From the NCBI GenBank assembly GCA_024636975.1, contig JAGXGA010000059.1, forward strand, positions 1 to 51,673: a stretch of 51,673 nt of DNA. The letters run 5' to 3'. The stretch comes from Mariniphaga sp. GTDB taxonomy: Bacteria > Bacteroidota > Bacteroidia > Bacteroidales > Prolixibacteraceae. Shown here one piece after another: positions 2,745-40,932 of the stretch. Within the stretch, counting starts at the first letter, position 1. The number at the start of each line of letters is the position of its first letter. The notes under the pieces were generated by a model. It was not told the DNA's origin and searched no databases. It was given only the letters and a program-made list of their open reading frames with translations. The translations under genes were made by a program, and so were the position numbers.

Positions 2745-3400
2745 TTACCCAACAACCTCCCTATTCATTCTCAAAAACAACGGCAGGTACAGCAATATTG
2801 CCACCATCGAAAATATCAATCCTCCAATGGCACCCGATGAAAATGTAAACCAGAATACTTCGGTCTGGCCTCCCCCACACAAAAGGAATGAGGCCAAGCA
2901 CTGTCGAGACAATGGTTAATGCAATGGCCACAATTATTTGGTTGGAGGCTTTCAGGTATGTTTTTATTGTGGTGGCTTTTCCTTGTCATTCCACCAAATT
3001 ATTAAAGTCATTGATGATGTAAATGGCTGCATTTACCACCAGACTGCTCAGCAGGATGAACGATGCAAAGCCCCCTGATCAAAATTAAAGCCAAACAGGT
3101 TGAAAGTGAGAAAGACTCCGATGAAGGTGATGGGTATCAGGTTGATTACTGCAAGTGGTTTTAAAAGCGACTCAAACAAAATAGCTGTAATGAAATAAAT
3201 AATTACAATGATGAGCAGCAACAGCCAGTACTGCTTTTTATCTTTGGTAAACCACATATAGAATGATTCTGGCTCTTGTGCCTTGTATCCCAATGGCAGA
3301 ATTTCATTCAGGGCATCAATTTCCCGTTCCTGCACCATTTTAGCCAGCGGTCCGGGTCGGATAAAGTTGTAGTTGAGGTACACCTGGTACCATCTTTATG
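2745..3400 (-). pseudogene. C-terminal remnant of an RND efflux transporter (AcrB/CusA type)
   Basis: Reading leftwards, codons give WYQVYLNYNF..., then a transmembrane run (LLLLIIVIIYFITAILFES, then PITFIGVFLTFNLFGFNFDQG), the typical C-terminal half of an inner-membrane RND pump. After FNFDQG the frame shifts by one base; the next frame reads FILLSSLVVNAAIYIINDFN, hits a TGA after NNLVE, continues as a further membrane segment, and shifts again near FVWGGQTEVF. It ends PLFLRMNREVVG-stop at 2745. So there are at least two frameshifts and one stop, and about 800 N-terminal residues are missing. The 5' end meets the intron fragment starting near 3419, which suggests that mobile-element activity cut the gene. 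It cannot make a functional pump. Confidence 0.85.
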
Positions 3401-3418
3401 ATCTTCATTTTATACAAC

Positions 3419-3646
3419 ATGCGGATATTTAGGGCTTTCGGGATTGGAACTACAATTACTGTTGAACGATTGAAGAAACGGGGTTACGCTACTTTGCCGG
3501 AACTCTACAATCAAAGTATACCTGTTAATTGGGATGGGACTATGTTCCCCGGTTTCCTGATGACTTGACGAACCTTCCCGCATTAGGCGGGATGGTGTGA
3601 GAGCTTCTCCCTGTCAGCGTTTGCTGACAAGGGCAGGCTACTCGAT
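3419..3646 (+). mobile_element. Group II intron 3' fragment, second and degenerate copy
   Basis: Bases 3419-3568 read as a 49-residue open frame containing ERLKKRGYATLPELYNQ and ending GFLMT-stop, the C-terminus of an intron-encoded reverse transcriptase; its last 17 codons nearly match those at 1-54. After the stop, domain V is altered: where copy 1 has the GCCGTATACG...CGTACGTACGG hairpin, this copy has a shorter TCCCGC-ATTA-GGCGGGA hairpin. Domain VI (about 3604-3634) differs from copy 1 only by one extra A, and the terminal CTACTCGAT is kept. No upstream intron sequence is present, so it is a dead remnant. Confidence 0.75.
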
Positions 3647-3658
3647 TATAAAGCGTGG

Positions 3659-3961
3659 TTATTTTAATTCTTTTCTCAACTTATCTGGATTCATTCTATT
3701 ATCAAAAATCGTTACAACTTTAATTGTTTTAGAATCGAAACGATAAAAAATTGAGGTTTGCTTTGTTACTACAAGCATATGAAGTCCATTTACAAAATCA
3801 GTGTTAGGACAAGACTCTGGGAATTTTTGAATCTGATTTAAGGATTTATCAAGTTTTTTGATGAAATCATCTTTCACTTTAAGAGACCATTCTTGTTCCA
3901 AATATTCAAGCAGTTTGTCAAGTCGATTGGATGCTCTTTTCGAAAGAATTATTTTTCTCAT
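3659..3961 (-). CDS. RelE/ParE-type toxin
   Basis: A 100-residue basic protein of the RelE/ParE superfamily. It begins MRKIILSKRASNRLDKLLEYLEQEW, the usual N-terminal helix pair with a hydrophobic-basic pattern. It continues with VKDDFIKKLDKSLNQIQKFPESCPNT, and then the beta-sheet core with VVTKQTSIFYRFDSKTIKVVTIFDNRMNP, where the terminal arginine and N-P match ParE-like toxins. Members cut mRNA at the ribosome or inhibit gyrase; the ParE-like C-terminus makes the target uncertain. The start codon overlaps the antitoxin stop (TAATG), the typical coupling in such pairs. Both genes look intact, which makes this the best candidate for a live toxin pair in the left zone. Confidence 0.85.
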   Translation of the reverse strand: MRKIILSKRASNRLDKLLEYLEQEWSLKVKDDFIKKLDKSLNQIQKFPESCPNTDFVNGLHMLVVTKQTSIFYRFDSKTIKVVTIFDNRMNPDKLRKELK

Positions 3962-4197
3962 TATCTGTGCTTTTTCATGAAATCTTCATAATCCACAACT
4001 TCTCCGTTTTCAATTTCCTTTATTCCCTGAAGTATATCATCTTTTTGCTCTTGAGAAATAGTCTTCCAGAAATCAGTTTCTTTACTTTCTCTAAAGATAT
4101 TCTTTACTGATTCTATAATCTTTGGATTGTTAGTTTCCAAAATCATTTTCATTATCTCTATTTTTTCTGCTTGAATATTCATCTCTTTTTTTCTCAA
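3961..4197 (-). CDS. Antitoxin partner of the RelE/ParE-type toxin
   Basis: A 78-residue protein encoded immediately upstream of, and overlapping by one base, the RelE/ParE-like toxin gene. The N-terminal half is helical (MNIQAEKIEIMKMILETNNPKI). The C-terminal part (DILQGIKEIENGEVVDYEDFMKKH) matches the short acidic tail common to Bacteroidota antitoxins that pair with RelE/ParE toxins. No separate DNA-binding motif is obvious, though the N-terminal helices could dimerise. The start could be the first ATG (4197) or the internal ATG five codons later (MNIQAEK). The functional call rests mainly on gene pairing and the recognisable tail. Confidence 0.75.
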   Translation of the reverse strand: MRKKEMNIQAEKIEIMKMILETNNPKIIESVKNIFRESKETDFWKTISQEQKDDILQGIKEIENGEVVDYEDFMKKHR

Positions 4198-4447
4198 AGT
4201 TAATCATTTTATTTTTTAGATTAAATTGTTATTTTGGGCTTCGGATTCCGATGCTTTATTACTTATATATGAAATTAAGTTACTATTTAAATAACTTAAG
4301 GGAGACTTTGTCTACGGCGTAAATGTTGCATCAAATAAGACGATACTTGTCTAGCCATCTTGTGTCTAATTCTGAATTGATCGCTTCAATCATATGGATA
4401 AGGATAATTTCTATAGTGAACAAGAAGTCTAACAACATTAATATTCA

Positions 4448-4807
4448 ATGATAATTCGGTATATTTGTAAAAATGAAGAACAGCAGATAATGTATTTTAG
4501 CGATTACCATTTACATAAAGATGCCCGGCTCCGAATGTCGTTGTTGTGGGAATACGATATAGAAAATATCGATTGGCTCAGGATGCGTAATATTATAGTG
4601 CAAAGGGTTATTGAACGTGGAAGGCCGGATGATTTTTATGCAATTCTTAATAAATACAGCCTCGATGGTGTAAAACAGACCATCAGGCAAATACCTTATC
4701 TAAATAAAAAAGATATGTCGTTTGTTTGTACCATTTTTGAAATGAAAAAAAATGAACTTAAATGCTCTACTACGGAACGGTTGAAAAACCAACACTGGAA
4801 ATCCTGA
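4448..4807 (+). CDS. DUF6922-type protein, partner of an AbiEii-like toxin
   Basis: A 119-residue protein whose central part (LLWEYDIENIDWLRMRNIIVQRVIERGRPDDFYAILNKY and the following IPYLNKKDMSFVCTIFEMKKNELKC) matches the small DUF6922 proteins encoded just upstream of AbiEii-type nucleotidyltransferase toxins in Bacteroidota. The more usual start is probably the ATG at 4490 (MYFSDYHLH), which removes 14 residues. The stop lies inside the following, broken AbiEii reading frame, an overlap expected for a translationally coupled pair. Because the downstream toxin is truncated, this is likely an orphan antitoxin-like gene. The domain name is from memory and moderately certain. Confidence 0.6.
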   Translation: MIIRYICKNEEQQIMYFSDYHLHKDARLRMSLLWEYDIENIDWLRMRNIIVQRVIERGRPDDFYAILNKYSLDGVKQTIRQIPYLNKKDMSFVCTIFEMKKNELKCSTTERLKNQHWKS

Positions 4808-4940
4808 AAAAATTGATGATGACAAATTTCTGAATGACTTTGTTCTTGTAGGCGGCACAGCATTGGCACTCAGATTTGGTCACCGCATCAGTGTAGATAT
4901 TGATTTATTTACAAACAAAAAGTTTAATTCTTTAGCATAA
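4762..4940 (+). pseudogene. Truncated, frameshifted AbiEii/AbiGii-family nucleotidyltransferase toxin
   Basis: From the ATG at 4762 the frame reads MLYYGTVEKPTLEILKKLM and then runs into a stop at about 4831. Adding one base after the LM codons restores FLNDFVLVGGTALALRFGHR and the following ISVDIDLFTNK, the clear N-terminal nucleotidyltransferase signature of AbiEii toxins (GG-T-A-L-A, then D-x-D). The restored frame then stops at 4940 after FNSLA. Family members are usually 230-300 residues, so roughly three quarters of the gene is missing as well as the frame being broken. It overlaps the upstream DUF6922-type gene, as intact pairs do. The 90 bp after it, up to the Fic gene, contain only A/T-rich sequence. 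Confidence 0.75.
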
Positions 4941-5033
4941 AGAAACAAGCTTAATTTTTAAATAAGCTGGTCTTTTATTTAAGAAATTTGATGAATAATT
5001 AAATAAGAGCTATCTTTATTTAAAAATTTTACC

Positions 5034-6158
5034 ATGAGACAGTTTAAGTCTGGTCAATACATTAGTCAAGGTTATTATAAAAGCTTTCAACCTGAGTTTA
5101 TTAACAGGCAGTTGCAAATCGAAAACATGGAAATATTGCAATTGTTAAGCCAGGCAGATAGAGAATTAGGGCGATTGGACATGTATTCAAAATATATTCC
5201 CAATATTGAATTGTTTATCAGTATGCATGTATTGAAGGAAGCGACACAGAGCAGTAAAATTGAAGGGACTCAGACAAAAATGGATGAAGCTCTTTTAGAG
5301 AAAGAAGACTTGCCATTAGATAAACGAGACGATTGGGAAGAAGTTCAGAACTACATTAAAGCAATGGAATGGGCTGTGGAGCGCCTTGATAAACTGCCTT
5401 TTTCATCACGATTAATAAGAGAAACGCATCGCGTACTGCTTCAAGGAGTGCGAGGAGAAAAAAAACAACCTGGTGAATTTCGGACTAGTCAAAACTGGAT
5501 TGGTGGGGCAACAATAAATGATGCTGTATTTATACCTCCGGTTCACAGCTCTGTACCTGAACTGATGAGTGATATTGAGAAATTTATTCATAACGAAGAA
5601 TTTCATATACCTGAATTGCTTAAAATAGGGCTGGTTCATTACCAATTTGAGACAATTCACCCTTTTCTTGATGGAAACGGTAGAGTAGGCCGAATAATAA
5701 TTCCGCTTTATTTGGTAAGTAAAGGAATATTACAAAAACCAGTATTGTATTTGTCTGATTTTTTTGAACGAAACAGGCAATTATACTACGATAATTTGAC
5801 GATTGTAAGAAAAAGAAATGATTTAGGACAATGGTATAAATTCTTTCTTGTAGGAGTGATTGAAACTGCAAAAAATGGAATCATCACTTTTGACAATATA
5901 CTACAACTTCAAAAACAAATTGATATTGACATCCAATCATTAGGCAGTAGGGCCTTAAAAGCTAAGATAGTAATAGACTATTTATATAAACGTCCAATAA
6001 TTACAGCAGACAAGGTGAGTGAGATTGCTTCGGTTTCTATGCCCTCATCTTACAAATTGATTTCAGATTTGGAAAAACTTAAGATATTGAAAGAAAATAC
6101 TGGTGGACGAAGAAGTAGAGTATATGTATTTGAGAATTATTTAAAATTATTTAGATAA
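5034..6158 (+). CDS. Fic family protein (class II, with N-terminal inhibitory helix)
   Basis: A 374-residue Fic-domain protein that probably transfers AMP from ATP to a protein side chain. The catalytic motif HPFLDGNGRVGR is complete at residues 209-220 (His209). Upstream, residues 73-78 (SSKIEG) fit the (S/T)xxxE(G/N) inhibitory motif, whose glutamate (E77) would block ATP positioning in the resting state; its N-terminal placement defines class II. The order is N-terminal Fic_N region (about 1-90), Fic core (about 120-260), and a C-terminal winged-helix-like region (about 300-374, IITADKVSEIASVSMPSSYKLI) that may bind DNA or a partner. No separate antitoxin gene is next to it. The length is normal and the gene looks intact. 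Confidence 0.9.
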   Translation: MRQFKSGQYISQGYYKSFQPEFINRQLQIENMEILQLLSQADRELGRLDMYSKYIPNIELFISMHVLKEATQSSKIEGTQTKMDEALLEKEDLPLDKRDDWEEVQNYIKAMEWAVERLDKLPFSSRLIRETHRVLLQGVRGEKKQPGEFRTSQNWIGGATINDAVFIPPVHSSVPELMSDIEKFIHNEEFHIPELLKIGLVHYQFETIHPFLDGNGRVGRIIIPLYLVSKGILQKPVLYLSDFFERNRQLYYDNLTIVRKRNDLGQWYKFFLVGVIETAKNGIITFDNILQLQKQIDIDIQSLGSRALKAKIVIDYLYKRPIITADKVSEIASVSMPSSYKLISDLEKLKILKENTGGRRSRVYVFENYLKLFR

Positions 6159-6296
6159 AGCCCGGTGGGCACTGTGGTGTTTAATGAATTGGGCTGATGG
6201 TGTTGATTAAATGGGTGTTGCATGTAATAAACTTTGCTGCTGTCTGATAGGTTCTTGCTTTGAAGCACCAAACGACACTATACAATTAACCGGTTT

Positions 6297-6530
6297 CTAA
6301 TATTCCCCCAGGTTATGTTTTATCAGATTTGTTTTTGCATTGATGTTGTCAATTGCGTTTTCAAGCCTTTCCCGATTTGCTTTACTTTTATTTAGGTGCA
6401 TCGTTTCCTGCATGTCATTGTATTCTGTTAATGACATCATTACTACACTCTTACCTTTAGGGCGATGAACAATAAAAATCTCTTCATTTTCGGATACGGC
6501 ATCTAAATTTGCTTTTAGATTTTGTCTCAA
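6297..6530 (-). pseudogene. Phd/YefM antitoxin, 5'-truncated
   Basis: The frame reads RQNLKANLDAVSENEEIFIV and then HRPKGKSVVMMSLTEYNDMQET, the unmistakable Phd/YefM DNA-binding and core region. It lacks the normal first 8-10 residues: the codon before the TTG at 6530 is TGA, so the usual M-x-x-x-YSEA opening is gone. A short protein could still start at this TTG, but it would lack the first strand of the fold. No RelE/YoeB toxin is found in the 140 bp downstream where one would normally follow. I therefore read it as an orphan remnant; an alternative is a functional product with a non-standard start. Confidence 0.65.
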
Positions 6531-6593
6531 TCAACTGATTTTGAACTCAAGCCTATCATCCTATACCTAGGTCTATAGTTTATATGTATTTTC

Positions 6594-6686
6594 TTCATTG
6601 TTTCTTCGAAGTTTCTTCGTGTTAAATTCGTAGAATTGCGAATTTAATACGAATTTAATACGAATATAACACGAATTAACACTGAA
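6594..6686. repeat. 11-bp phased imperfect palindromic array
   Basis: TTC(A/G) cores at 6594, 6605, 6616 and 6627 are spaced exactly 11 bp apart. The complementary CGAA cores follow at 6639, 6650, 6661 and 6672, with TGAA at 6683, again 11 bp apart. The two halves face each other around 6634/6635, so the whole is an imperfect palindrome; about 27 of 41 positions pair, and the CGAA/TTCG cores are the best conserved. It lies between the truncated Phd gene and the gene at 6871, and its architecture repeats at 35220-35329 with other core bases. Confidence 0.65.
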
Positions 6687-6870
6687 ATTAAAATGGAGGA
6701 GGCCTTGTTCAGAAGTATGGAATGAACAGGGAACAGATAGCTGGGCCCGCGGCTGGCTGATGATTTTATCCGAAAGTCGGACTTTCCCAATTTGAGGGTG
6801 GTGCAAAATTAATTTCCGCTTTATTATTAATATTTCGGCGGGTTGTGTATTTTAGTTCAAAATTTAGACC

Positions 6871-7557
6871 ATGACTGAAAAGGAGATCCGAGCTGCCCTG
6901 CTTGAGGCTTTTGTGATAAAATCGAATGTTAAGCAAAAAGTTTATGCCAATACGCTGCAGTCGTTCAGGATATTAAAGAAAGTACTGAAGCTGCTCGAAA
7001 AAGAATACCTTTCTACTGTAAAAGAACAGGTTTCTGCAGCTGCCCTGCCGGCTTACAGAGAAAAGGGGCCTTTTGAGGCGGAGTTTGAAATTGGAGGCGA
7101 TCTGCTTATTTTTAGCATGCATTCAAATGTGTTTGAATTCGATAACAAACACCCGGTTCTTAAATCGACCTATATTAAGGACGATCCTTTGCGTTCGTAC
7201 TGCGGTATGATTAACATTTACAATTTCCTGGCCGATTCGTTTAAGTACGATCGAAATAAAGACCTTGGCTACCTGGTAGCACGTATTTTTATTAACAAGG
7301 ACAACCATTTTTTTGTAGAGGGCAAACGGCAGACAGAAGAAAATGTAAAAAGCTTTGCCATTGATACCATTTCCCCCGGTGTGCTGCGGCAGATCATTGA
7401 AACAGCCATCGGTTACTGCATAGAATTTGACCTGCTGGTGCCGCCCTACGACCAGGTAAAACTGGCTACAGTTGAACAAATGCAGCAAAAAATGACGCAT
7501 TCAAGAATGATTACCGGTAAAAGGCTGGGGTTTGTATTTAATTCGGATGATGTGTGA
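6871..7557 (+). CDS. Conserved hypothetical protein, 228 residues
   Basis: I do not recognise this family. The protein opens with a charged helical region (residues 1-55, MTEKEIRAALLEAFVIKSNV). It continues with a mixed alpha/beta part containing EAEFEIGGDLLIFSMHSNVF, DDPLRSYCGMINIYNFLADS and RIFINKDNHFFVEGKRQ. There is no signal peptide or membrane segment, so it is probably cytoplasmic. Codon use is less A/T-rich than in the surrounding broken genes, and no frame disruption is visible, which favours a real, older gene. It stands alone: the palindromic array is upstream, and a 270-bp repeat of the transposase cluster begins 130 bp downstream. Confidence 0.65.
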   Translation: MTEKEIRAALLEAFVIKSNVKQKVYANTLQSFRILKKVLKLLEKEYLSTVKEQVSAAALPAYREKGPFEAEFEIGGDLLIFSMHSNVFEFDNKHPVLKSTYIKDDPLRSYCGMINIYNFLADSFKYDRNKDLGYLVARIFINKDNHFFVEGKRQTEENVKSFAIDTISPGVLRQIIETAIGYCIEFDLLVPPYDQVKLATVEQMQQKMTHSRMITGKRLGFVFNSDDV

Positions 7558-7687
7558 TTTGTACGGTATAAATCCGTTCCAGCATTGTCGGTGTCAGAAT
7601 AAAGTACAAAAGATGTCTGTGACAATCTGAGCTATATGCATATCGGATATCTAAGGTATTTTCGGAAACCTTTGCATCATTTAAATA

Positions 7688-7957
7688 AGGTAATGAGGTT
7701 TCGGGTGTAGTTTATAGCGGGCTGATTACTAAGGTTGACAAAGAAAATAAGGTTTTTTTGCATCGATGAGGACTTAAATGTACTACTCCTGACAATAATT
7801 GCTGTAGGTGTTGCATAAAGGCATTGAAAACAAGGGGTTTAAGTTTTTTTATTCTTATATGAATTGTTGAAAAATAAGCTCCTAAAAACCTTATTTTCAG
7901 CAACTAACCTTAGTAACCAGACAAGTTTTCCTTACCTATCCTCTGACCTTATTACCT
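7688..7957. repeat. Triple nested inverted repeat, unit A (about 270 bp)
   Basis: Three left blocks (GGTAATGAGG, TTACTAAGGTTG, AAAATAAGGTTTTT) are answered in reverse order by AAAAACCTTATTTT, AACCTTAGTAAC and CCTTATTACCT. All blocks share an AAGG/CCTT core. The middle, about 125 bp, is variable. It lies about 70 bp upstream of the transposase gene. Units B and D have the same blocks and almost the same length (271 bp each). Confidence 0.8.
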
Positions 7958-8029
7958 AATTTTGTATCTTTAAGAACATATAATTGAAACAAGTTAATAT
8001 TTTCTTAGATTCCATAAAATAATATTAAT

Positions 8030-8473
8030 ATGAAAATTGAATATAATAACCTTTACACACATTTTGTATTTGTAACACACTTGAGAGTATCTATGATTAA
8101 ACCGCAATCCAGAGAACGAATTGAAAAATATATAACTGGTATTGTGAATAATAAAGACTGTAAAATGTATGCTATTTATGCAAATCCTGAGCACGTTCAT
8201 TTTTTAATCTCACGCTCTCCTGCTATTTCTGAAGAAACTATTGCAACAGTAATTGCAAACAGCTCAACAAAATTTATTAACGACAATAATCTGAGCAGCG
8301 GTAAGTTTGCCTGGCAACAATCAGCTTCTGCGTTTTCAGTGTCTAAAGGAGATATAGAAAACGTCTGCAAATACATATTAAATCAACCGGAGCACCATCG
8401 TATAAAAACGTTTGAAGAAGAGTATAATGAGTTTATGAAATTTTATCAGAAAACCTTAAATCCTTCTAATTAG
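8030..8473 (+). CDS. HUH tyrosine transposase, IS200/RAYT type
   Basis: A 147-residue member of the Y1_Tnp (IS200-like) family: single-stranded-DNA transposases that cut with one tyrosine and a metal held by an HUH motif. The HUH motif is in ANPEHVHFLISR (residues about 51-62). The catalytic tyrosine is in VCKYILNQPEHH (about residue 114), followed by the standard FEEEYNEFMKFY tail. The opening MKIEYNNLYTHFVFVT is also typical. The gene is bracketed by units A and B of a 270-bp inverted repeat, and its stop codon overlaps the left edge of unit B. This is the layout of REP-associated tyrosine transposases (RAYTs) and of IS200-like elements with hairpin ends. The frame is intact, so it may be active. 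Confidence 0.85.
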   Translation: MKIEYNNLYTHFVFVTHLRVSMIKPQSRERIEKYITGIVNNKDCKMYAIYANPEHVHFLISRSPAISEETIATVIANSSTKFINDNNLSSGKFAWQQSASAFSVSKGDIENVCKYILNQPEHHRIKTFEEEYNEFMKFYQKTLNPSN

Positions 8474-24293: not shown

Positions 24294-25589
24294 ATGTATT
24301 ATTCATTCAGTTATAGAATTATAATATTCACATTCGTTTTTCTATTTGCTGCTTTTTTTTCATCCGGGCAAACTGCATTCGGGGAACCGGAAGCTACAAC
24401 ATATATAAAAAGGGAATTTAATGCCGGTTTAAAATTTAAAGTGACACCCGAACGGGATCTAATTAAAACAGATGAATCCTTGTTCTCGGTTGAACAGACT
24501 ATTGGAACAGCAGCAATAGAACTTGTCAGTAAAAATTTGATTTACCTGCCCGCGCGGCAGGAGCAATGGAGTTACCGCTTCGAATTAGGGCCGTTTATGG
24601 GGAATGGTAACCTGGCCGACATCACTGCAAAAGAATACATCGATGCAGAATTATCTCCATCGGGTATCAGGGGCAATTTGCAGGGCTCTTATTTCAGCCG
24701 CTTTTACTGGGACAGCAAAAACTACACAATTGTCAGTGTAAACGCCTGGGGTTTATACGATATATACCGGCGCAATGCTGAAGGTACGGTCATTGATTCA
24801 AACAATGTGTCTCATCCATACGAAGATGATTCAAATCTGAGGAAACTCAGGTATGGGTTCCAGGCAAAGGCAGGGTGGGGAATAGGAAGAATGAATCCCG
24901 TGAACCATTTTGCAACGGCACAGTACATGCTCGAAAAATACTATCCCGGAAGGAACTTCTCCGAAGAGGAAATCCGGACAGTAGCCCGCGAAATAGGTCA
25001 TATTAAACATCAGCGGAATATGCGCACCGGGCATTCAGCCGAAAATGAAACCAAACAGCTTGCAGCTTTTCTGAACAGCAAACTGTTCCTGGAATCTCCG
25101 GCAGGAATGGAAAGTGACTGGGAACTGACTGAATTTCGTCCCCGCTTTCAGGGCAGCCGCCTTGAGTTTGGACCGTTCTTTAACTACTACAGCCGGGAAC
25201 CCGATATGGTTTACGGAGGATACATCCGCTATGAAAATCAAAAGTATTGCAGTCTGAAACTTAACCGGATACTTAGCGCCGGTATGAATTACAACGGCTA
25301 TAAAAAAGACGACTGGGTTACCTTTGAAGCAACAGCTGGCTGGAACTGGTACCCCTCAATGAAGCATGAAATAGGTTTTGGTGTACGTTACCTGCCCGGT
25401 ATGGTGGTTAAAAGCCTTGATGACCTTCAACCGTTACGCCATGCTGTAATTCCTTACCTCGAGTATTTTACCCAACTTAATTCCAGGTACCGTATAGAAA
25501 CTGCATTTGCATATCGCATTGCCAATGAGGATGAGTTTGTTATGCCTGGTCCGGAGCTTTCTGTATCGATTTACCGAAGCAGCTACTGA
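24294..25589 (+). CDS. Secreted or outer-membrane protein of unknown function
   Basis: A 431-residue protein with a signal peptide (residues 1-25, IIIFTFVFLFAAFFSSGQ). The rest alternates polar and aromatic residues in short amphipathic strands, for example WSYRFELGPFMGNG, GIRGNLQGSYFSRFYWDSKN and HEIGFGVRYLPGMVV. It ends in a strand pattern (ELSVSIYRSSY), as expected of a beta-barrel outer-membrane protein. Residues about 205-270 form a helical, charged insert (RNFSEEEIRTVAREIGHIKH). I cannot assign a family. Its 3' end overlaps the end of the convergent HepT-like gene by 7 bp. Confidence 0.6.
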   Translation: MYYSFSYRIIIFTFVFLFAAFFSSGQTAFGEPEATTYIKREFNAGLKFKVTPERDLIKTDESLFSVEQTIGTAAIELVSKNLIYLPARQEQWSYRFELGPFMGNGNLADITAKEYIDAELSPSGIRGNLQGSYFSRFYWDSKNYTIVSVNAWGLYDIYRRNAEGTVIDSNNVSHPYEDDSNLRKLRYGFQAKAGWGIGRMNPVNHFATAQYMLEKYYPGRNFSEEEIRTVAREIGHIKHQRNMRTGHSAENETKQLAAFLNSKLFLESPAGMESDWELTEFRPRFQGSRLEFGPFFNYYSREPDMVYGGYIRYENQKYCSLKLNRILSAGMNYNGYKKDDWVTFEATAGWNWYPSMKHEIGFGVRYLPGMVVKSLDDLQPLRHAVIPYLEYFTQLNSRYRIETAFAYRIANEDEFVMPGPELSVSIYRSSY

Positions 25590-25990
25590 GGTTCAGATAA
25601 ATTCTGCATGAGTACGGCAAATAGTTGAAGGTCAGCCAGGCGATTTTCAATAATTTCCATAACCACTTCCATGTTAATCGAACTATAATCATGTACAGCA
25701 ATGTTTCTAAAACCTGTCATTGCCTGCAGATTTTTACTTAATTCAGGTGTTATAAGTTGGTTGGATTCAAGCTTGATGAAAATATCCCTGTTGCTTTGAG
25801 GTAAGCCTAATTTGAGGTGCCTGATTATCCTGCTACCAATGTCAATTGCCGCCTGACAGGCACGTTCAATATTTAAGACTACTGAATCCTGTTTGGTGAA
25901 ATTTGATTTAAAATCATCCTGATAATCTTCCCGGATTCTTTTAATACACCTTTCAATCGTTGTTTTTTTATTTTGCAGAATCTCGTCCAT
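25583..25990 (-). CDS. HepT-like toxin of a HepT/MntA pair
   Basis: A helical protein of about 135 residues. The HEPN active-site motif is present as RNIAVHDY (R-x4-H-x-Y; Arg101, His106 and Tyr108 counted from an upstream ATG). HEPN toxins of this group are RNases that cut tRNA or mRNA; the antitoxin attaches AMP residues to the motif tyrosine. I choose the ATG at 25990, giving MDEILQNKKTTIERCIKRI, the usual opening of the family; an upstream ATG adds six residues. Its 5' end overlaps the antitoxin gene by 23 bp. The module is inserted between a barrel-protein gene and dnaK and looks intact. Confidence 0.85.
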   Translation of the reverse strand: MDEILQNKKTTIERCIKRIREDYQDDFKSNFTKQDSVVLNIERACQAAIDIGSRIIRHLKLGLPQSNRDIFIKLESNQLITPELSKNLQAMTGFRNIAVHDYSSINMEVVMEIIENRLADLQLFAVLMQNLSEPQ

Positions 25991-26381
25991 AACTGGATTT
26001 AATGTCATTAAGAATATCCATCCTGGTTTCGTTTAAATCGGCATACATGGAATAGGTTGTTGTTTCAAAGTTCTCACATTCATACTTGTTGCCGGTGAAT
26101 AACCGTATGCCATTATCAATAACCTCCACACGCAGTATAACGGATGCATCCTTTAAATCAACCAGATCGACATCCTTATCTAATTCTGAAGCAAGCTCTT
26201 CCTGAATATTCCATCTTTCCACAGCTGTTAACTTTGTACCGGTTAATATGGCAACATCTATATCACTGTTTGGACGATAGGATCCATTGGCATAACTGCC
26301 AAAAAAATAGATACCAAACAGGGCCGGAATTTTATCTGTTAATTGTCTTATAATTATATCTTTAATCGGTTTTTCTTCCAT
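25968..26381 (-). CDS. MntA-like nucleotidyltransferase antitoxin
   Basis: A 137-residue minimal nucleotidyltransferase. The active-site signature GSYANGSYRPNSDID (residues 28-42) fits GSx10DxD exactly, with Asp40 and Asp42 as metal ligands. In the HepT/MntA system this enzyme adds AMP units to the tyrosine of the HepT motif and so silences the RNase. After about residue 60, ELDKDVDLVDLKDASVILRV gives the third carboxylate and the typical end of the fold. The C-terminal 40 residues are unlike the closest family members I recall and may contact HepT. It is the first gene of the pair and is divergent from dnaK. Confidence 0.87.
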   Translation of the reverse strand: MEEKPIKDIIIRQLTDKIPALFGIYFFGSYANGSYRPNSDIDVAILTGTKLTAVERWNIQEELASELDKDVDLVDLKDASVILRVEVIDNGIRLFTGNKYECENFETTTYSMYADLNETRMDILNDIKSSYGRDSAK

Positions 26382-35938: not shown

Positions 35939-38380
35939 CTAAAACTTAATATTCAATCCGGCCATAAAGTGTCGGCCGGCTTGCGGGTAATACCCATCCA
36001 TTTTGTAGCGTTCGCCACCGAGGATATAGGAATAAACCCAGGCATTGTTTTCATACATTTCGTTGAACAGGTTGTTTACCATCAGGTGCAGCACCATCTC
36101 ATCGAAGAATCTTGATTTGATGGTGTAATCGATTTTCAGGTTATTGATAAAATAGGCATCCAGGCTGCGGTCGTCGCTGGAAGTGTTATCGATGTATTGC
36201 TTTCCGACATAGGTGGAAATGAATGACAGTTCAAGGTTAGAAGCCGGATGGAAAAGCAACTGGCTGTTGGCAATAACATTGGGTGAGAAAGCTATGTCGG
36301 TATTACCCAGATCAAAGGTTTCCTGGCCCCAGGTATCCCAGTTGTCGACATACTCGGTGAAGTTTTTAATCTTGTTCTGGCTGAATGTGGCATTTGCATT
36401 CCACTGCAGGTTTCGGGTAAAGGCAACGCCATACTGCAATTCGACACCTGCCCGGTAACTGTCGTCGGCATTCACCATGATGGGCGATCCTACATCGTTG
36501 ATTTCACCGGTCAGCACAAGCTGGTTGTCGTAATTCATGAAGTAGAAATTCAGACTACCGGAAAAGATAGCCGATTTGTAGTTATACCCCAGTTCCCAGT
36601 CGTACAGGGTTTCGTATACCGGCGAATCCCTTTCCGGATCGGCATCCACATAGGCAGTACGGTTGGGTTCACGGTTGGCTGTGGCATATGAAAAATAAAT
36701 TTCCTGGTTGTTAACAGGCTGGTAAAAAATTCCAAGCTTTGGATTGAAGAAATTAAACTGGTGTTCCTGGGTCAGGATACGTAAATCATCATCAATCCCT
36801 TCAATCGTGTAGTCAATTTTCCGGTACTGAAGATCGGCAAACAGGTTCAGTTTCTCAAAGAGCTGAAAGTTATCCTTGACAAACAGGTTTAAATCGTTTT
36901 TTAAACCCTTGTTGCGGTACCATTCATGTTTGGGATCAACCTCTCCGAGGTACTGACCCCAGATTACGTTTCCGTAGTGGTGGCCGGTGTAGTCGTTCCA
37001 GCCTCCTCCAAGAGTAAAATCATTCCGTCCTGTACTGTAATTCATTGAAAAAGTAAGACCGTAAAAATGGTTGTCGAGCCATTTCCTGTTTACCAGATCA
37101 GTTGACTCTATGGTTTCTTCACCAATTGTAATTACAGGTATCTGATAGTCTTCCAAATCTTCCCCTTCCTTGAAATTTTCATAATATCCCTTTCCCCTGA
37201 TATAAAAGCCGGATACATTAACATTAAAGCCGGGAGAGAATTTATGTGAGAAATGCAGTTGATAATGGTCCTGCTGATAATTATCAACCTGGTTTTCGTA
37301 GGTGTACAGGTTGTAGGTCCTGCTGTCGGAGTTGATCATTTCCTGTGTTTGCTGGGGTGTGTAAAGCCAGTGCTCTTCGTAGCGCTGCATGCCTTCCAGG
37401 TCGTTGTTCAGCCGTACCGACGGCACACCATTCCAGGCCTGGTAGGTTGTTTCCAGGCCGGAGAATACATTGGCTTTGAGTATTGTATTTTCCGAATAAT
37501 AACCTCCCGCCACAAAAAAAGATTTTAAGTCGGCAGATGCCCTGTCGATGTAACCATCTGATGTAATTTTGGAGAGACGGGCATCGACCGAGAATTTGCC
37601 GTTGAGCAGTCCGGATCCTGCCATTACTGAATTCTTCATGGTATTGAAGGAGCCGGCAGCTGCCTGGTATTCTGCATATGCATCCCTGTTTAGTGTGTTG
37701 GTCTGCAAATCGATGGTAGCTCCAAAAGCGGCCGCACCATTGGTTGATGTGCCCACACCCCGCTGAATCTGTACATTCTCGAGCGATGAGGCCAGGTCGG
37801 GCTGGTCGACAAACCACGTTCCGTGAGATTCGGGGTCATTAAGCGGGATACCATTCACCGTTACATTGATGCGGTTCAAATCGGTACCGCGAATGCGAAA
37901 GTTAGTATAGCCTACACCTGCACCTGCATCGGAGGTGGCTACAAAAGAGGGTGTAAGCTGGAGCAGGTAGGGAATATCCTGGCCCATATTCCGTCTGTTG
38001 ATTTCCTCGCCGGTAACATTTGTATAGGCCACCGGGGTTTTGTTGCCGGCACGTGTTGCCGAAACAAGGACCTCACTGGTAAGTATAGAAACAGGCTCCA
38101 GGTTAATTATTATTTCCTTTTCAGCAGGAGCTGTAACTTTTCTTACCACCGGTTCATACCCGATAAATGAGGCGGTAATGATGTACTCACCTTTCTTAAG
38201 GTTTCTGAACTCAAAACTGCCGTCGTTTTGTGCTGATACACCATACTGCGTATTATTGATGACCACACTTGCACCGGGGAGCGGCTCATTTTCTCCGGTT
38301 ACCTTACCTTTCATACTGTATTGCGCTATCGCGGCAATACCCATCAGCTGCAAGAGCAGCCAAAAACTTAATCGTTTCAT
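35939..38380 (-). CDS. TonB-dependent outer-membrane receptor, probably for thiamine
   Basis: An 813-residue receptor. After the signal peptide (residues 1-20) comes a carboxypeptidase-like beta-sandwich (about 22-100, GKVTGENEPLPGASVVINNT) and then the plug (about 110-230). The plug contains TNFRIRGTDLNRINVTVNGI and the following PLNDPESHGTWFVDQPD, with VQIQRGVGTSTNGAAAFGAT. A 22-strand barrel fills the rest and ends GRHFMAGLNIKF with the terminal aromatic. The leader holds a TPP riboswitch, which strongly suggests that this receptor imports thiamine or a precursor. No inner-membrane transporter for thiamine is encoded next to it. A hairpin follows the stop. Confidence 0.9.
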   Translation of the reverse strand: MKRLSFWLLLQLMGIAAIAQYSMKGKVTGENEPLPGASVVINNTQYGVSAQNDGSFEFRNLKKGEYIITASFIGYEPVVRKVTAPAEKEIIINLEPVSILTSEVLVSATRAGNKTPVAYTNVTGEEINRRNMGQDIPYLLQLTPSFVATSDAGAGVGYTNFRIRGTDLNRINVTVNGIPLNDPESHGTWFVDQPDLASSLENVQIQRGVGTSTNGAAAFGATIDLQTNTLNRDAYAEYQAAAGSFNTMKNSVMAGSGLLNGKFSVDARLSKITSDGYIDRASADLKSFFVAGGYYSENTILKANVFSGLETTYQAWNGVPSVRLNNDLEGMQRYEEHWLYTPQQTQEMINSDSRTYNLYTYENQVDNYQQDHYQLHFSHKFSPGFNVNVSGFYIRGKGYYENFKEGEDLEDYQIPVITIGEETIESTDLVNRKWLDNHFYGLTFSMNYSTGRNDFTLGGGWNDYTGHHYGNVIWGQYLGEVDPKHEWYRNKGLKNDLNLFVKDNFQLFEKLNLFADLQYRKIDYTIEGIDDDLRILTQEHQFNFFNPKLGIFYQPVNNQEIYFSYATANREPNRTAYVDADPERDSPVYETLYDWELGYNYKSAIFSGSLNFYFMNYDNQLVLTGEINDVGSPIMVNADDSYRAGVELQYGVAFTRNLQWNANATFSQNKIKNFTEYVDNWDTWGQETFDLGNTDIAFSPNVIANSQLLFHPASNLELSFISTYVGKQYIDNTSSDDRSLDAYFINNLKIDYTIKSRFFDEMVLHLMVNNLFNEMYENNAWVYSYILGGERYKMDGYYPQAGRHFMAGLNIKF

Positions 38381-38429
38381 TTTTAGAAATTTTGGTTAAT
38401 AAACTAACCAATGGAGTGGGACGTGTCCC

Positions 38430-38515
38430 ATTTTGCCCTCCCTTCGCCGGCATTACCCGGATCAGGTTCTGTGGGTATAATCTCAGCCCTTGTATTAAGG
38501 CACCCCCATTGCATA
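38430..38515 (-). promoter_or_regulatory. TPP riboswitch (thi box)
   Basis: Reading leftwards: GGGGGTGCC, then GGGCTGAGATTATACCC, GAACCTGATCCGGGTAATGC and CGGCGAAGGGAGGGC. These are the conserved pyrimidine- and pyrophosphate-sensing parts of the thiamine pyrophosphate aptamer (the CTGAGA and ACCTGATC...GGTAATGCCGGCG boxes). Downstream, TGGGACACGTCCCA can form a hairpin within the 50 bp before the receptor's start, which could hide the ribosome site. Binding of TPP would lower receptor synthesis. Confidence 0.96.
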
Positions 38516-38664
38516 AATCGCGACAAAGTTAAAAATGAATTTTGAAAAGGACAAATTTTGATTAAAAGTTACCGGGGAAGTTGAACAACGAACAGATTTT
38601 GTTAATCTGGCGAATGCCAATCATTATTACCTATGTGTTTGTTTTAAATTATCCGGCTAAACTA

Positions 38665-39834
38665 CTAACAATCAGAAGAGGGCAGGGTAAACGTGACGGT
38701 TGTTCCCTTGTTGGGTTTACTTTTAGCCCAAATTTTGCCACCGTGCATTTCTACAAATTCTTTACATATTGCCAGTCCAAGGCCGCTTCCCTTTTCGTTT
38801 TCAGTACCTCTCTGCGATTCATTGAATTCGTTCACAAATAGTTTTTTTAGCACTTCCTCCGGCATGCCGGTCCCATTATCGGTTACTGATATTTCTAATT
38901 CATTATTGAAATGCCGGGTTGTTATTTTAATAAAACTGTTCTGAGTTGAGAATTTTATGGCATTGGTCAAAAGGTTTCGCATGATGCTGGTAAGCATGTT
39001 TTCTTCTGCGGTCCATTCAATATTCTCCGGAATTTCTGTTTGTATGGTTATATTTTTTTTTGATGCCTGTTCGTTAACCAATTCAAGAACTACCTCCAGA
39101 ACCTCGCTGACTGCCAATTTTGAGGGGTTAAATCGGGTAAATTCACGTTGCAGGGAAGCCCATTCCAATAGATTTTCGAGTAAAAAGTAGGTGTTATTTG
39201 TCGATCGATAGATATGATTGGCATAATCCTGAAGTTGGTTATCAGTCAACTCATGAATGTTTTCCTTTAAGATTTCAGCAAATCCAAGTATGCCACTGAA
39301 AGGGCTTTTTAAATCGTGAGCAATAATAGAGAATAGTTTATCTTTTTGACGATTTGTTTTTTGAAGCTCCCCATTTTTCTCATCCAGCAGGGAAAGTGCA
39401 TTTTCCAAATTTCTTTTTTCGTTAATTAACTGTCTTTGCAGGTTATTTATTTCACGGTTAAGCTGATGTAAATTTTTATTTTGCTGTTGCAGGTTTTCAA
39501 AGTCATGGCTTGTTAAAACCAGCAGTTCATTTGAATGTCGGTAAACGACCGCCGGGAATGATTTATTCACTGCGGAGTATTCACCTATGGTAAGAAATCC
39601 TTCAAAAATTAACGAAGAACCAATTGTTGGAAGCTGGCACAGTTTTTCGAAAGATGGGTTAATTAACTTCTGGTGTGGGATACCATCTAACAGTTTTTGT
39701 AAAGGATCGTTTGCAAAAATTAAGGATTTATCCAGAGAAAAAATTGCAATGCCTAAAAAGCTTTTATCAATTCCTGCATGCATTATTTCATTAGACCATC
39801 GGGCAATATTTTTATTTTCCAAAAAGGCTGTCAT
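38665..39834 (-). CDS. Soluble PAS histidine kinase
   Basis: A 389-residue sensor kinase with no membrane segment. The order is PAS-like domain (about 10-110, LGIAIFSLDKSLIFANDPLQ), a coiled coil (about 112-165), HisKA with the phosphorylated His173 in SIIAHDLKSPFSGILGFAE, and HATPase (N box RNLLTNAIKFS, G1 VTDNGTGMPEEVL, G2 GSGLGLAICKEFVEMHGGKI). All catalytic parts are present. It is the third gene of a probable operon after the B12-binding protein and a helical protein; the gap to the latter is 2 bp. No response regulator is adjacent. An intracellular signal, possibly the cobalamin protein, is the likely input. Confidence 0.92.
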   Translation of the reverse strand: MTAFLENKNIARWSNEIMHAGIDKSFLGIAIFSLDKSLIFANDPLQKLLDGIPHQKLINPSFEKLCQLPTIGSSLIFEGFLTIGEYSAVNKSFPAVVYRHSNELLVLTSHDFENLQQQNKNLHQLNREINNLQRQLINEKRNLENALSLLDEKNGELQKTNRQKDKLFSIIAHDLKSPFSGILGFAEILKENIHELTDNQLQDYANHIYRSTNNTYFLLENLLEWASLQREFTRFNPSKLAVSEVLEVVLELVNEQASKKNITIQTEIPENIEWTAEENMLTSIMRNLLTNAIKFSTQNSFIKITTRHFNNELEISVTDNGTGMPEEVLKKLFVNEFNESQRGTENEKGSGLGLAICKEFVEMHGGKIWAKSKPNKGTTVTFTLPSSDC

Positions 39835-39836
39835 TG

Positions 39837-40298
39837 TTATTGCAAAGAGTTTTCTTCCTCTTTATTAATAGTTGATAATTTTTCTAACAGAGGGATGTTT
39901 TCCTGGATCCATTTATAAAGCGGGAGAATTTGATTATAGGCCTCTTCACTTAACTGGACCTTTAAAATATCTTGCCACGCGTTAATTTGTTCAACCCAGT
40001 AATTAACTGAAAATCCATGACTGCGGTATGTTTTGAAAACCCAAAGCAAAGTATCCACCAGCACTTCAGAGTTAGGATACTTGAGAATGGAATGAATAAA
40101 CAGCATATGGTTGGCATGATTGTTTTTCATCATGGCCACATTGTTTTTACCAATTAGTTCTTGCAAATTTTCCAGGGATGTCATATGCATATTTATGGCG
40201 GCAACCAACGATTCCAATTTGATGTGGTATTCAGATATAGCATTATTCCCGACCGGTGGTAATTTTTTTGCAGTAGTATTAAGGTATTCGTAATTCAT
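39837..40298 (-). CDS. Helical protein of unknown function between B12 protein and kinase
   Basis: A 153-residue, probably all-helical cytoplasmic protein. Blocks include YHIKLESLVAAINMHMTSLE, NHANHMLFIHSILKYPNSE and WVFKTYRSHGFSVNYWVEQI. The last third continues with INAWQDILKVQLSEEAYNQI. I cannot assign a family; the globin- or phycobilisome-like helix lengths are only suggestive. The start ATG overlaps the stop of the B12-binding gene (TGATG) and its stop is two bases from the kinase ATG, so the three products are made together. A role as an adaptor between the cobalamin domain and the kinase is a reasonable guess. Confidence 0.65.
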   Translation of the reverse strand: MNYEYLNTTAKKLPPVGNNAISEYHIKLESLVAAINMHMTSLENLQELIGKNNVAMMKNNHANHMLFIHSILKYPNSEVLVDTLLWVFKTYRSHGFSVNYWVEQINAWQDILKVQLSEEAYNQILPLYKWIQENIPLLEKLSTINKEEENSLQ

Positions 40299-40645
40299 CA
40301 GTTTGTTGCATTTAAATAATTTTCCAATGATGGCAGGTCAGACAGATAATGAACATTTTTGTATTTTAAAATGCATTCTCTTCCGCCTCTTGTAAAAGCC
40401 TGCCCACCGGTTAAAACGGTAAGGTCAGGAAACTGATCCGTGATATCATCCAACATCAATTGGAGTATGGGAAGATTAAAATAGATACTCAATGATATGC
40501 AGACAACCATGGGACTGGTTTCCTGAATATATTCCAGAAGGTCCTTTTTCGGGGTGTTGGCACCCAAAAATAACACATCCCAGCCTTTTAGCTCAAAAAC
40601 GTCGGACACCATCCGGGCGCCAATTTGATGGTGCTCATTTTCCAA
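40298..40645 (-). CDS. B12-binding domain (CarH-type), downstream part of a frameshifted gene
   Basis: This reading frame holds the Rossmann-like cobalamin domain. The lower-ligand motif is EHHQIG (E-x-H-x-x-G), the form seen in CarH/LitR photoreceptors, where methionine synthase has DxHxxG. It is followed by FELKGWDVLFLGANTP, ISLSIYFNLPILQL and VLTGGQAFTRGG. The preceding codons VIVTCLEN, which supply the first strand, are only reached by changing frame at 40660-40665 from the upstream part. An internal TTG start at 40645 is possible but would lose that strand. Together with 40654-40932 the product would be about 210 residues: helical cap plus B12 domain, without any HTH. Confidence 0.75.
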   Translation of the reverse strand: MENEHHQIGARMVSDVFELKGWDVLFLGANTPKKDLLEYIQETSPMVVCISLSIYFNLPILQLMLDDITDQFPDLTVLTGGQAFTRGGRECILKYKNVHYLSDLPSLENYLNATN

Positions 40646-40653
40646 ACAGGTAA

Positions 40654-40932
40654 CTATAACTTTTTATTAGATTTTTCAGAAAATTTAAGGCTGAGATAGA
40701 TTTCATTTAGCAGCGATTCAACGATTGCCGATGCCAGATGTTCAGTGGCTACACTTATTTTATTTTCCTCCCAAAGTTCCCCTATACGATACATGGCAGG
40801 TTTCAAAAAGCTTTCATAAATTTCTGCAGGGGGAACATTTGCAGTCAGCAAATCCTTTATCAATCCTGAGCTGGTTTTATGATCGCCAGCAAGTAAAGGT
40901 TTTAATACCGGATTATTTGTAATTGCCACCAT
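40654..40932 (-). CDS. B12-binding cap domain (W-x9-EH), upstream part of the frameshifted gene
   Basis: The 92-residue frame encodes the four-helix cap of cobalamin-binding proteins: LIKDLLTANVPPAEIYESFL, KPAMYRIGELWEENKISVA and TEHLASAIVESLLNEIYLSL. Trp54, nine residues, then Glu64-His65 match W-x9-EH, a hallmark of CarH-type AdoCbl light sensors. In Thermus CarH the residue after Trp is the histidine that captures cobalt after illumination; here it is Glu55, so that detail differs. The frame ends at a TAG just after an A-run (40661-40665). One base less or a -1 shift there joins it to the B12 domain downstream. Confidence 0.75.
   Translation of the reverse strand: MVAITNNPVLKPLLAGDHKTSSGLIKDLLTANVPPAEIYESFLKPAMYRIGELWEENKISVATEHLASAIVESLLNEIYLSLKFSEKSNKKL

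Follow-up and report, generated by a model that had tools for sequence, protein, structure and literature searches.

Three adjacent genes in Mariniphaga sp. (Bacteroidota, Prolixibacteraceae) encode a cobalamin (B12) binding protein, a small helical protein predicted to be a globin of phycobiliprotein type and a histidine kinase, and we find that this trio is a real conserved module present across several phyla. The stretch analysed, referred to here as the window, is contig JAGXGA010000059.1 of assembly GCA_024636975.1 (51,673 nucleotides). On balance we favour the interpretation that the three genes form a sensory module working like a photocobilin, a B12 photoreceptor with a fused globin, that has been cut into separate polypeptides. 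Direct support for this comes from the gene order and its conservation, the sequence motifs of the B12 protein, its grouping with photocobilins, the predicted globin fold of the middle protein, a dedicated PAS-coiled-coil front end on the kinase and the exchangeable outputs attached to it. Binding of adenosylcobalamin (AdoCbl), a light stimulus, a physical complex and the direction of kinase control are what we infer by analogy with known systems.

Organisation of the locus

All module genes lie on the minus strand between window positions 38665 and 40932 as four open reading frames (ORFs) whose starts were assigned mechanically.

40654 to 40932, minus strand: cap piece of the B12 protein, 92 amino acids, four-helix cap, Pfam B12-binding_2 (4.5e-15).
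40298 to 40645, minus strand: B12-domain piece, 115 amino acids in a different frame from the cap piece, Rossmann fold, Pfam B12-binding (2.2e-14).
39837 to 40298, minus strand: middle protein, 153 amino acids, predicted phycobiliprotein-type (photoglobin-like) globin from AlphaFold2 and Foldseek.
38665 to 39834, minus strand: kinase, entire gene, 389 amino acids, Pfam HisKA and HATPase_c.
39400 to 39834, minus strand: N-terminal PAS fold and coiled coil of the kinase (LNREINNLQRQL), the conserved coupling part, from the predicted model, Foldseek and a locus profile.
38665 to 39399, minus strand: catalytic part of the kinase, Pfam HisKA (5.1e-11; H173 in HDLKSP by H-box pattern) and HATPase_c (3.7e-31).

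The cap piece carries the motif G51-x-x-W54-x9-E64-H65, and the E-x-H-x-x-G of the B12-domain piece reads EHHQIG and holds the lower-ligand His. The middle gene overlaps the B12-domain piece by 1 base pair (bp) and is followed by the kinase after a gap of 2 bp. This spacing and a B12 gene divided over two frames had been described in an initial annotation of the window and were reproduced from the ORF coordinates, and the residues to which it had drawn attention (Trp54, Glu64-His65 and E-x-H-x-x-G) were all located where it had placed them. It had also described a B12 domain without a helix-turn-helix (HTH), in agreement with our scan in which the two pieces matched the two B12 Pfam domains only. 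The kinase had been described as containing a PAS domain and no membrane segments. Its maximum hydropathy over any 19-residue stretch is 1.28 against a threshold of 1.6 and, given HisKA with its phospho-acceptor His, HATPase_c and no predicted membrane helix, we classify it from its sequence as a soluble histidine kinase; the PAS domain is seen in the structure model alone, with Pfam finding none in this protein. The Pfam scan of the window ORFs assigned no family to the middle protein, and promoter and terminator scans gave signals no better than those in shuffled sequence.

Conservation of the three-gene module

Recurrence of the three-gene neighbourhood with an intact B12 gene in other genomes had been proposed as a check on the module, and such recurrence was found. 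The middle protein is present in 11 of 60 near genomes, its own included, and, among 395 genomes of the phylum, strongly in a further four; four weak globin matches (E 0.0026 to 0.0082) were excluded from every count. All of the first 14 relatives have a one-frame B12 gene, a globin and a kinase together, the kinase lying between the other two at L041. Scanning named genomes turned up 141 relatives of the middle protein, 80 of which were analysed; some of these lie on contigs already counted among the earlier relatives, the sampling is heavy in metagenome-assembled genomes (MAGs) and the E-values are relative to the candidates of the scan. Carriers among these 80 of 141 are mainly Bacteroidota and also include Spirochaetota, Desulfo- groups, Planctomycetota, Elusimicrobia, Oligosphaera and Competibacteraceae. 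At 77 of these 80 loci there is an adjacent B12 gene, with no B12 match at L097 (a contig edge), L102 and L130. A gene like the window kinase is adjacent at 78, and the one at L136 ends in GGDEF. The order is B12-kinase-globin at L106, L135, L139 and L145 and globin-B12-kinase at L144, and at all 77 loci having both, the globin is encoded apart from the B12 protein. Apart from the trio no neighbour family occurs at more than 5 of the 80 loci save one two-component type found at 34, the representative of which is a hybrid kinase. A scan with a single window protein gave no relatives and there were none on viral contigs. In Geofilum rubicundum a single 660 amino acid frame ahead of the globin gene encodes a B12 domain together with a kinase-like part (L076:4026-6008).

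Across 140 genomes of the family the globin and the PAS part of the kinase occur on one contig in 24, the globin only in three, the PAS part only in two and neither in 111 (Fisher 1.4e-21, shared ancestry not removed), and 26 of the 140 have the PAS part, once each. In G475 the contig ends just past the globin, in G552 a PAS part absent from the list of the genome search lies between the B12 gene and the globin, and in G471 there is no PAS part within the stretch examined. The B12 protein can pair with a PAS kinase without the globin: in G542 and G546 (loci L222 and L223) the B12 gene directly precedes a PAS-coiled-coil kinase with no globin match in the stretch or the genome. A relay of the signal through the middle protein, as put forward in the initial annotation, is thus not obligatory.

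The B12 protein groups with photocobilins

Module B12 proteins are mostly around 215 amino acids long with an N-terminal cap and lack the MerR DNA-binding domain, which was present in all three CarH-type proteins scanned as a comparison. The motifs are highly conserved among the 77 adjacent B12 proteins, with GxxW and W-x9-EH in every one and ExHxxG and the loose pattern GxxxP in 76 each. Directly after the cap Trp is a Glu in 75 of the 77 and a His in none, at a position that we take to correspond to His132 of CarH, the residue of the bis-His light state. The absence of a His there fits the photocobilin SasPcob, because its light state is water-ligated rather than bis-His (PMC10979010).

A profile of the B12 family compared with PDB sequences placed SasPcob first (8j2x/8j2w, 3e-26), followed by 8jbs and then AbPcob 8j2y (photocobilin names from PMC10979010), with CarH at 3e-9. 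In a tree of 56 rows, in which long branches were flagged and the eight photocobilin rows are plasmid-borne relatives labelled so in this analysis, module proteins and photocobilins lie on one side with moderate support (87/74) and CarH/MerR proteins are separate (99/95). The protein therefore keeps the motifs for which it had been assigned to the CarH/LitR group, but both profile and tree place it nearer to photocobilins than to CarH. The window B12-domain piece is sister to the intact L071 protein (95/98). Module rows do not form one clade, with L106 among the Azospirillum photocobilins, L127 on a very long outside branch and the paralogues L187 and L188 falling among the module rows.

We also considered whether the B12 protein could serve corrinoid methyl transfer and the kinase beside it be unrelated, given that corrinoid proteins and MetH have the same two Pfam domains and match the B12 profile at up to 4.5e-14 (1y80) and 3.9e-13 (8g3h). 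However W-x9-EH is found in none of eight corrinoid proteins and is lacking in four of five MetH stretches, and in the fifth (L190) the string lies 106 residues ahead of the lower-ligand motif as opposed to 46-47 residues in 76 module proteins. MetH and corrinoid proteins also occupy a separate branch of the tree (100/99), so the grouping with corrinoid methyltransferase subunits that had been named as an argument against a photoreceptor was looked for and not seen. An identity as a corrinoid methyltransferase protein was rejected on the tree and motifs, leaving this explanation with a very small probability.

The middle protein is predicted to be a phycobiliprotein-type globin

The AlphaFold2 model of the middle protein has a mean predicted local distance difference test score (pLDDT) of 93.3. 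Among the best 50 of 731 Foldseek rows, 43 are phycobiliproteins or smURFP and seven are heme-type globins, with query template modelling (TM) scores of 0.49 to 0.65, probabilities of 0.99 to 1.00 and a best E of 0.016. Based on the model we assign the protein to the globins of phycobiliprotein type; photocobilins carry such a domain joined to their B12 domain in one chain (PMC10979010). The middle protein had been described as a 153-residue helical protein, which is correct for size and helices and missed the globin identity. The module globin is also tied to the B12 domain by a Rosetta stone argument because a plasmid-encoded protein of Ilyobacter polytropus (WP_013388897, L151:3524-4645) has a globin of this type (1.6e-31) ahead of its B12 domain and is encoded beside a GGDEF gene. 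Pfam searches of 15 globins up to E 5 gave scattered matches at chance level.

Two further fused genes were observed. In Azospirillum thermophilum a B12 protein begins with a photoglobin-like part and the genes after it encode a hypothetical protein and a HAMP histidine kinase (L152:3566-5860), an arrangement that may be a fused equivalent of the module, and G027, a carrier of the split module, additionally has a frame-broken photoglobin-like fused B12 gene (L189:1691-2767).

Asn60, Asn63 and Trp86 of the globin are invariant in both row sets (81 and 15 rows). Asp59 is found in 78 of the 81 rows, 80 of which were fetched with peptide patterns spanning this position. The Asn59 of the window globin was considered as a lost pigment residue and dropped, as Asn, Ser or Thr at position 59 also occurs in other rows of the pattern-free 15-row set.

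Bilin and cobalamin supply

The heme oxygenase family PF01126 was found in none of 28 carriers (31 genomes were searched, three being non-carriers of the genus) and in one of 23 further carriers, the exception being the genome of L136 whose module has a GGDEF output. Two of the 23 are probably repeats of the first 28, giving a total of about 49 carriers, 48 of them without heme oxygenase; this search covered PF01126 alone, with other heme-degrading enzymes and bilin uptake outside it. Three of 14 control genomes were positive. In a weak profile alignment, with positions inferred from a 26-residue spacing, the invariant Asn60 falls at Asp270 of SasPcob, which holds biliverdin, and Trp86 at Trp296. 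In most carriers the globin probably works without biliverdin.

These data bear on a two-pigment version of the split photocobilin in which biliverdin bound to the globin would widen the response into the red. Such a role would suit a fold like that of phycobiliproteins and smURFP, and two stand-alone BBAG-2 globins of B12-associated clusters bind biliverdin, although they are photoinert (PMC10151467). Against this, the scarcity of PF01126 and the Asn at the Asp270 position both argue for a globin without bilin, and we regard the two-pigment version as improbable. The adenosyltransferase PF01923 was also sought in 15 carriers and is present in 14, which means that AdoCbl can be made.

A PAS-coiled-coil front end with exchangeable outputs

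In the model the first 143 residues of the kinase form a PAS fold that runs on into a long helix at its C-terminal end (mean pLDDT 88.6). PAS structures dominate the best Foldseek rows for this region, none of them at E <= 0.001, and Pfam PAS families match at most three of 40 kinase members, the match in L136 being to an additional PAS at 175-290. A profile of the PAS part was made from 35 of the 40 rows, excluding five deviant members (L093, L136, L135, L106 and L144), such that 34 of the 80 loci contributed a row. This profile matches beside the globin gene at 76 of the 80 loci and matches no other ORF there, though many other kinases are present, and among the excluded members it strongly matches L093 (8.9e-38) and L136 (2.1e-31). 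HATPase_c is present in 39 and HisKA in 38 of the 40 members, with HisKA_2 in L093 and GGDEF in L136. The PAS-coiled-coil is a dedicated front end and its outputs (HisKA, HisKA_2, GGDEF) are exchangeable. A two-component kinase output had been proposed for the B12 sensor, which agrees with the soluble PAS kinase in a conserved operon but not with the GGDEF output of L136. In 73 of 78 kinase-like neighbours, partial ones included, there was no stretch above the hydropathy threshold.

Proposed mechanism

Illumination of photocobilins leads to loss of the adenosyl group, movement of the Glu-His helix (SasPcob) and >10-fold activation of the cyclase of AbDPcob (PMC10979010). By analogy the B12 protein of the module would bind AdoCbl with the conserved His as lower ligand, the Trp stacked on the adenosyl group and the Glu-His pair at a dimer face. 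The globin would pack on the B12 domain like the fused globin of photocobilins and may serve as a packing or tuning partner. Light would then cleave the Co-C bond and, on departure of the adenosyl group, the Glu-His cap helix would shift and the complex rearrange. This change could be read by the PAS-coiled-coil of the adjacent soluble kinase, altering phosphorylation of an unlinked response regulator. A broader form of this proposal, in which the module is a plug-in light sensor of several phyla made up of a B12 subunit and a bilin-free globin docking on an output-swapping PAS-coiled-coil adaptor, largely in anaerobes, is put forward tentatively and we hold it to be somewhat doubtful.

A number of observations weigh against the split photocobilin. 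The globin assignment is one of fold: Foldseek gave no match to the middle protein at E <= 0.001 and photocobilin chains were not among the best 50 of 731 rows. A search of PDB sequences with the globin gave none up to E 10, one other search returned TMEM147 only (0.32), the joined profile does not reach into the globin, and a profile-profile comparison of the module and photocobilin globins was weak (P 0.025, probability 1.9%). There is no kinase-like neighbour at L102 and L127. Of the members excluded from the PAS-part profile, L135 matches weakly (5e-4) and L106 and L144 not at all, and neither the gene next to the Ilyobacter fusion nor the photocobilin loci on plasmids have the PAS part. 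Damaged modules, including that of the window, are described below.

The remaining adverse points concern the stimulus. Many carriers are titled as sediment MAGs or belong to groups with a known anaerobic lifestyle, an odd setting for a light sensor. GxxH, the fourth element of a published light signature (PMC11796333), is kept in just 10 of the 77 adjacent B12 proteins. Both points also favour the main rival explanation, an identical module with the same anatomy in which the stimulus is AdoCbl supply or redox state (apo as against AdoCbl-bound or oxidised) and not light. No recurrent neighbour points to light, with no search aimed at photoprotection genes. Set against this rival are the adenosyl-holding Trp and the Glu-His pair of light sensors, found in all 77 proteins, and the nearest solved relative by profile, which is the light-switched SasPcob (PMC10979010). 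We consider control by AdoCbl supply or redox state to be unlikely, though deserving of more weight than the other alternatives. Under the broader proposal the module would probably have been overlooked by the published light-signature search (PMC11796333), as GxxH is mostly not kept.

The B12 gene is broken in the Mariniphaga genome

In the window the frame of the B12 gene is broken between the cap piece and the B12-domain piece. The gene is one open frame in the first 14 relatives and in all 77 adjacent B12 genes of the named loci, and a programmed frameshift was rejected on this basis. Differences from L071 at codon positions 1/2/3 are 0.33/0.14/0.50 and 0.33/0.23/0.58 for the two B12 pieces, a pattern like that of the kinase (0.35/0.20/0.57) and globin (0.34/0.23/0.51), and the break is therefore recent or an assembly error. 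Searching the window's own genome (an assembly 95% complete) with the B12 profile at E <= 1e-8 returned the two window pieces and three other places, with no second or intact module-type copy found. Two of these were labelled as a corrinoid protein (229 amino acids with DLHDIG; by size, motif and neighbour) and as MetH (a 1246 amino acid frame; by size and motif). The third is an intact MerR-B12 protein of 298 amino acids with W-x9-EH (L195:647-1540 on contig C67; WQVGSIFPAQEH), and judging from this sequence the genome retains a separate CarH-type regulator. With its B12 gene frame-broken, the module has probably been silenced in this genome unless the break is an assembly error. Damaged modules also occur in other drafts of the family: the globin gene is split in two in G458 and G544, and in G545 both the B12 and globin genes are interrupted.

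Other features of the window

Just downstream of the kinase gene is a thiamin pyrophosphate (TPP) riboswitch (38423-38517, minus strand, Rfam 63.4 bits), which precedes a TonB-dependent receptor gene (35939-38380, minus strand) likely to encode a thiamin-type transporter. At 25583-26381 (minus strand) a HepT-like RNase gene overlaps a nucleotidyltransferase gene, resembling a HepT/MntA toxin-antitoxin pair, and genes for an AcrB-family fragment, a ParE-type toxin, DUF6922 and an IS200-like transposase make up a mobile or decayed patch at 3048-8473.

Relation to known systems and significance

Schneider et al. in 2022 reportedly described a Photoglobin family, a phycocyanin-related globin coupled to B12 light-sensor and prokaryotic signalling domains. 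Like the module, CarH/LitR proteins have W-x9-EH and a lower-ligand His in an AdoCbl domain, whereas the module has no MerR HTH, no His after the Trp and its own position in the tree. The photocobilins SasPcob and AbDPcob share with it the Trp/Glu-His and ExH features of the B12 domain, a phycobiliprotein-shaped globin and control of an enzyme, but are single polypeptides, while the B12 protein and globin of the module are separate genes (PMC10979010). The module globin also agrees with that of photocobilins in fold class without being recognisably homologous by sequence, the module effector has a PAS-coiled-coil front end and heme oxygenase is found in one of about 49 carriers. Similar in gene arrangement are the BBAG-2 clusters, where a stand-alone globin gene lies beside a stand-alone B12-binding gene; a bilin reductase (pre-2) accompanies them, or else they occur in Myxococcales genomes that have heme oxygenase (PMC10151467). 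In the module the third gene is a PAS kinase and heme oxygenase is mostly missing. Photocobilins and stand-alone globin-B12 pairs are known already, and what appears to be new is the split module with its dedicated output-swapping PAS-coiled-coil and near absence of heme oxygenase. A literature search for a B12-globin-kinase operon, the coverage of which did not extend to the photoglobin study, found no description at the level of titles and abstracts.

Most known B12 photoreceptors are either repressors (CarH) or photocobilins, the latter on their own or with an enzyme fused to them. If the broader proposal is true, a B12 photoreceptor would here have a two-component output and a photoglobin-like protein would be at work without bilin. 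A split version signalling to a soluble kinase would be a natural modular two-component output useful in optogenetics, and the module partners offer a set for asking how the state of B12 crosses a protein interface. It also poses the puzzle of why bacteria without heme oxygenase retain a phycobiliprotein-like globin beside a B12 sensor.

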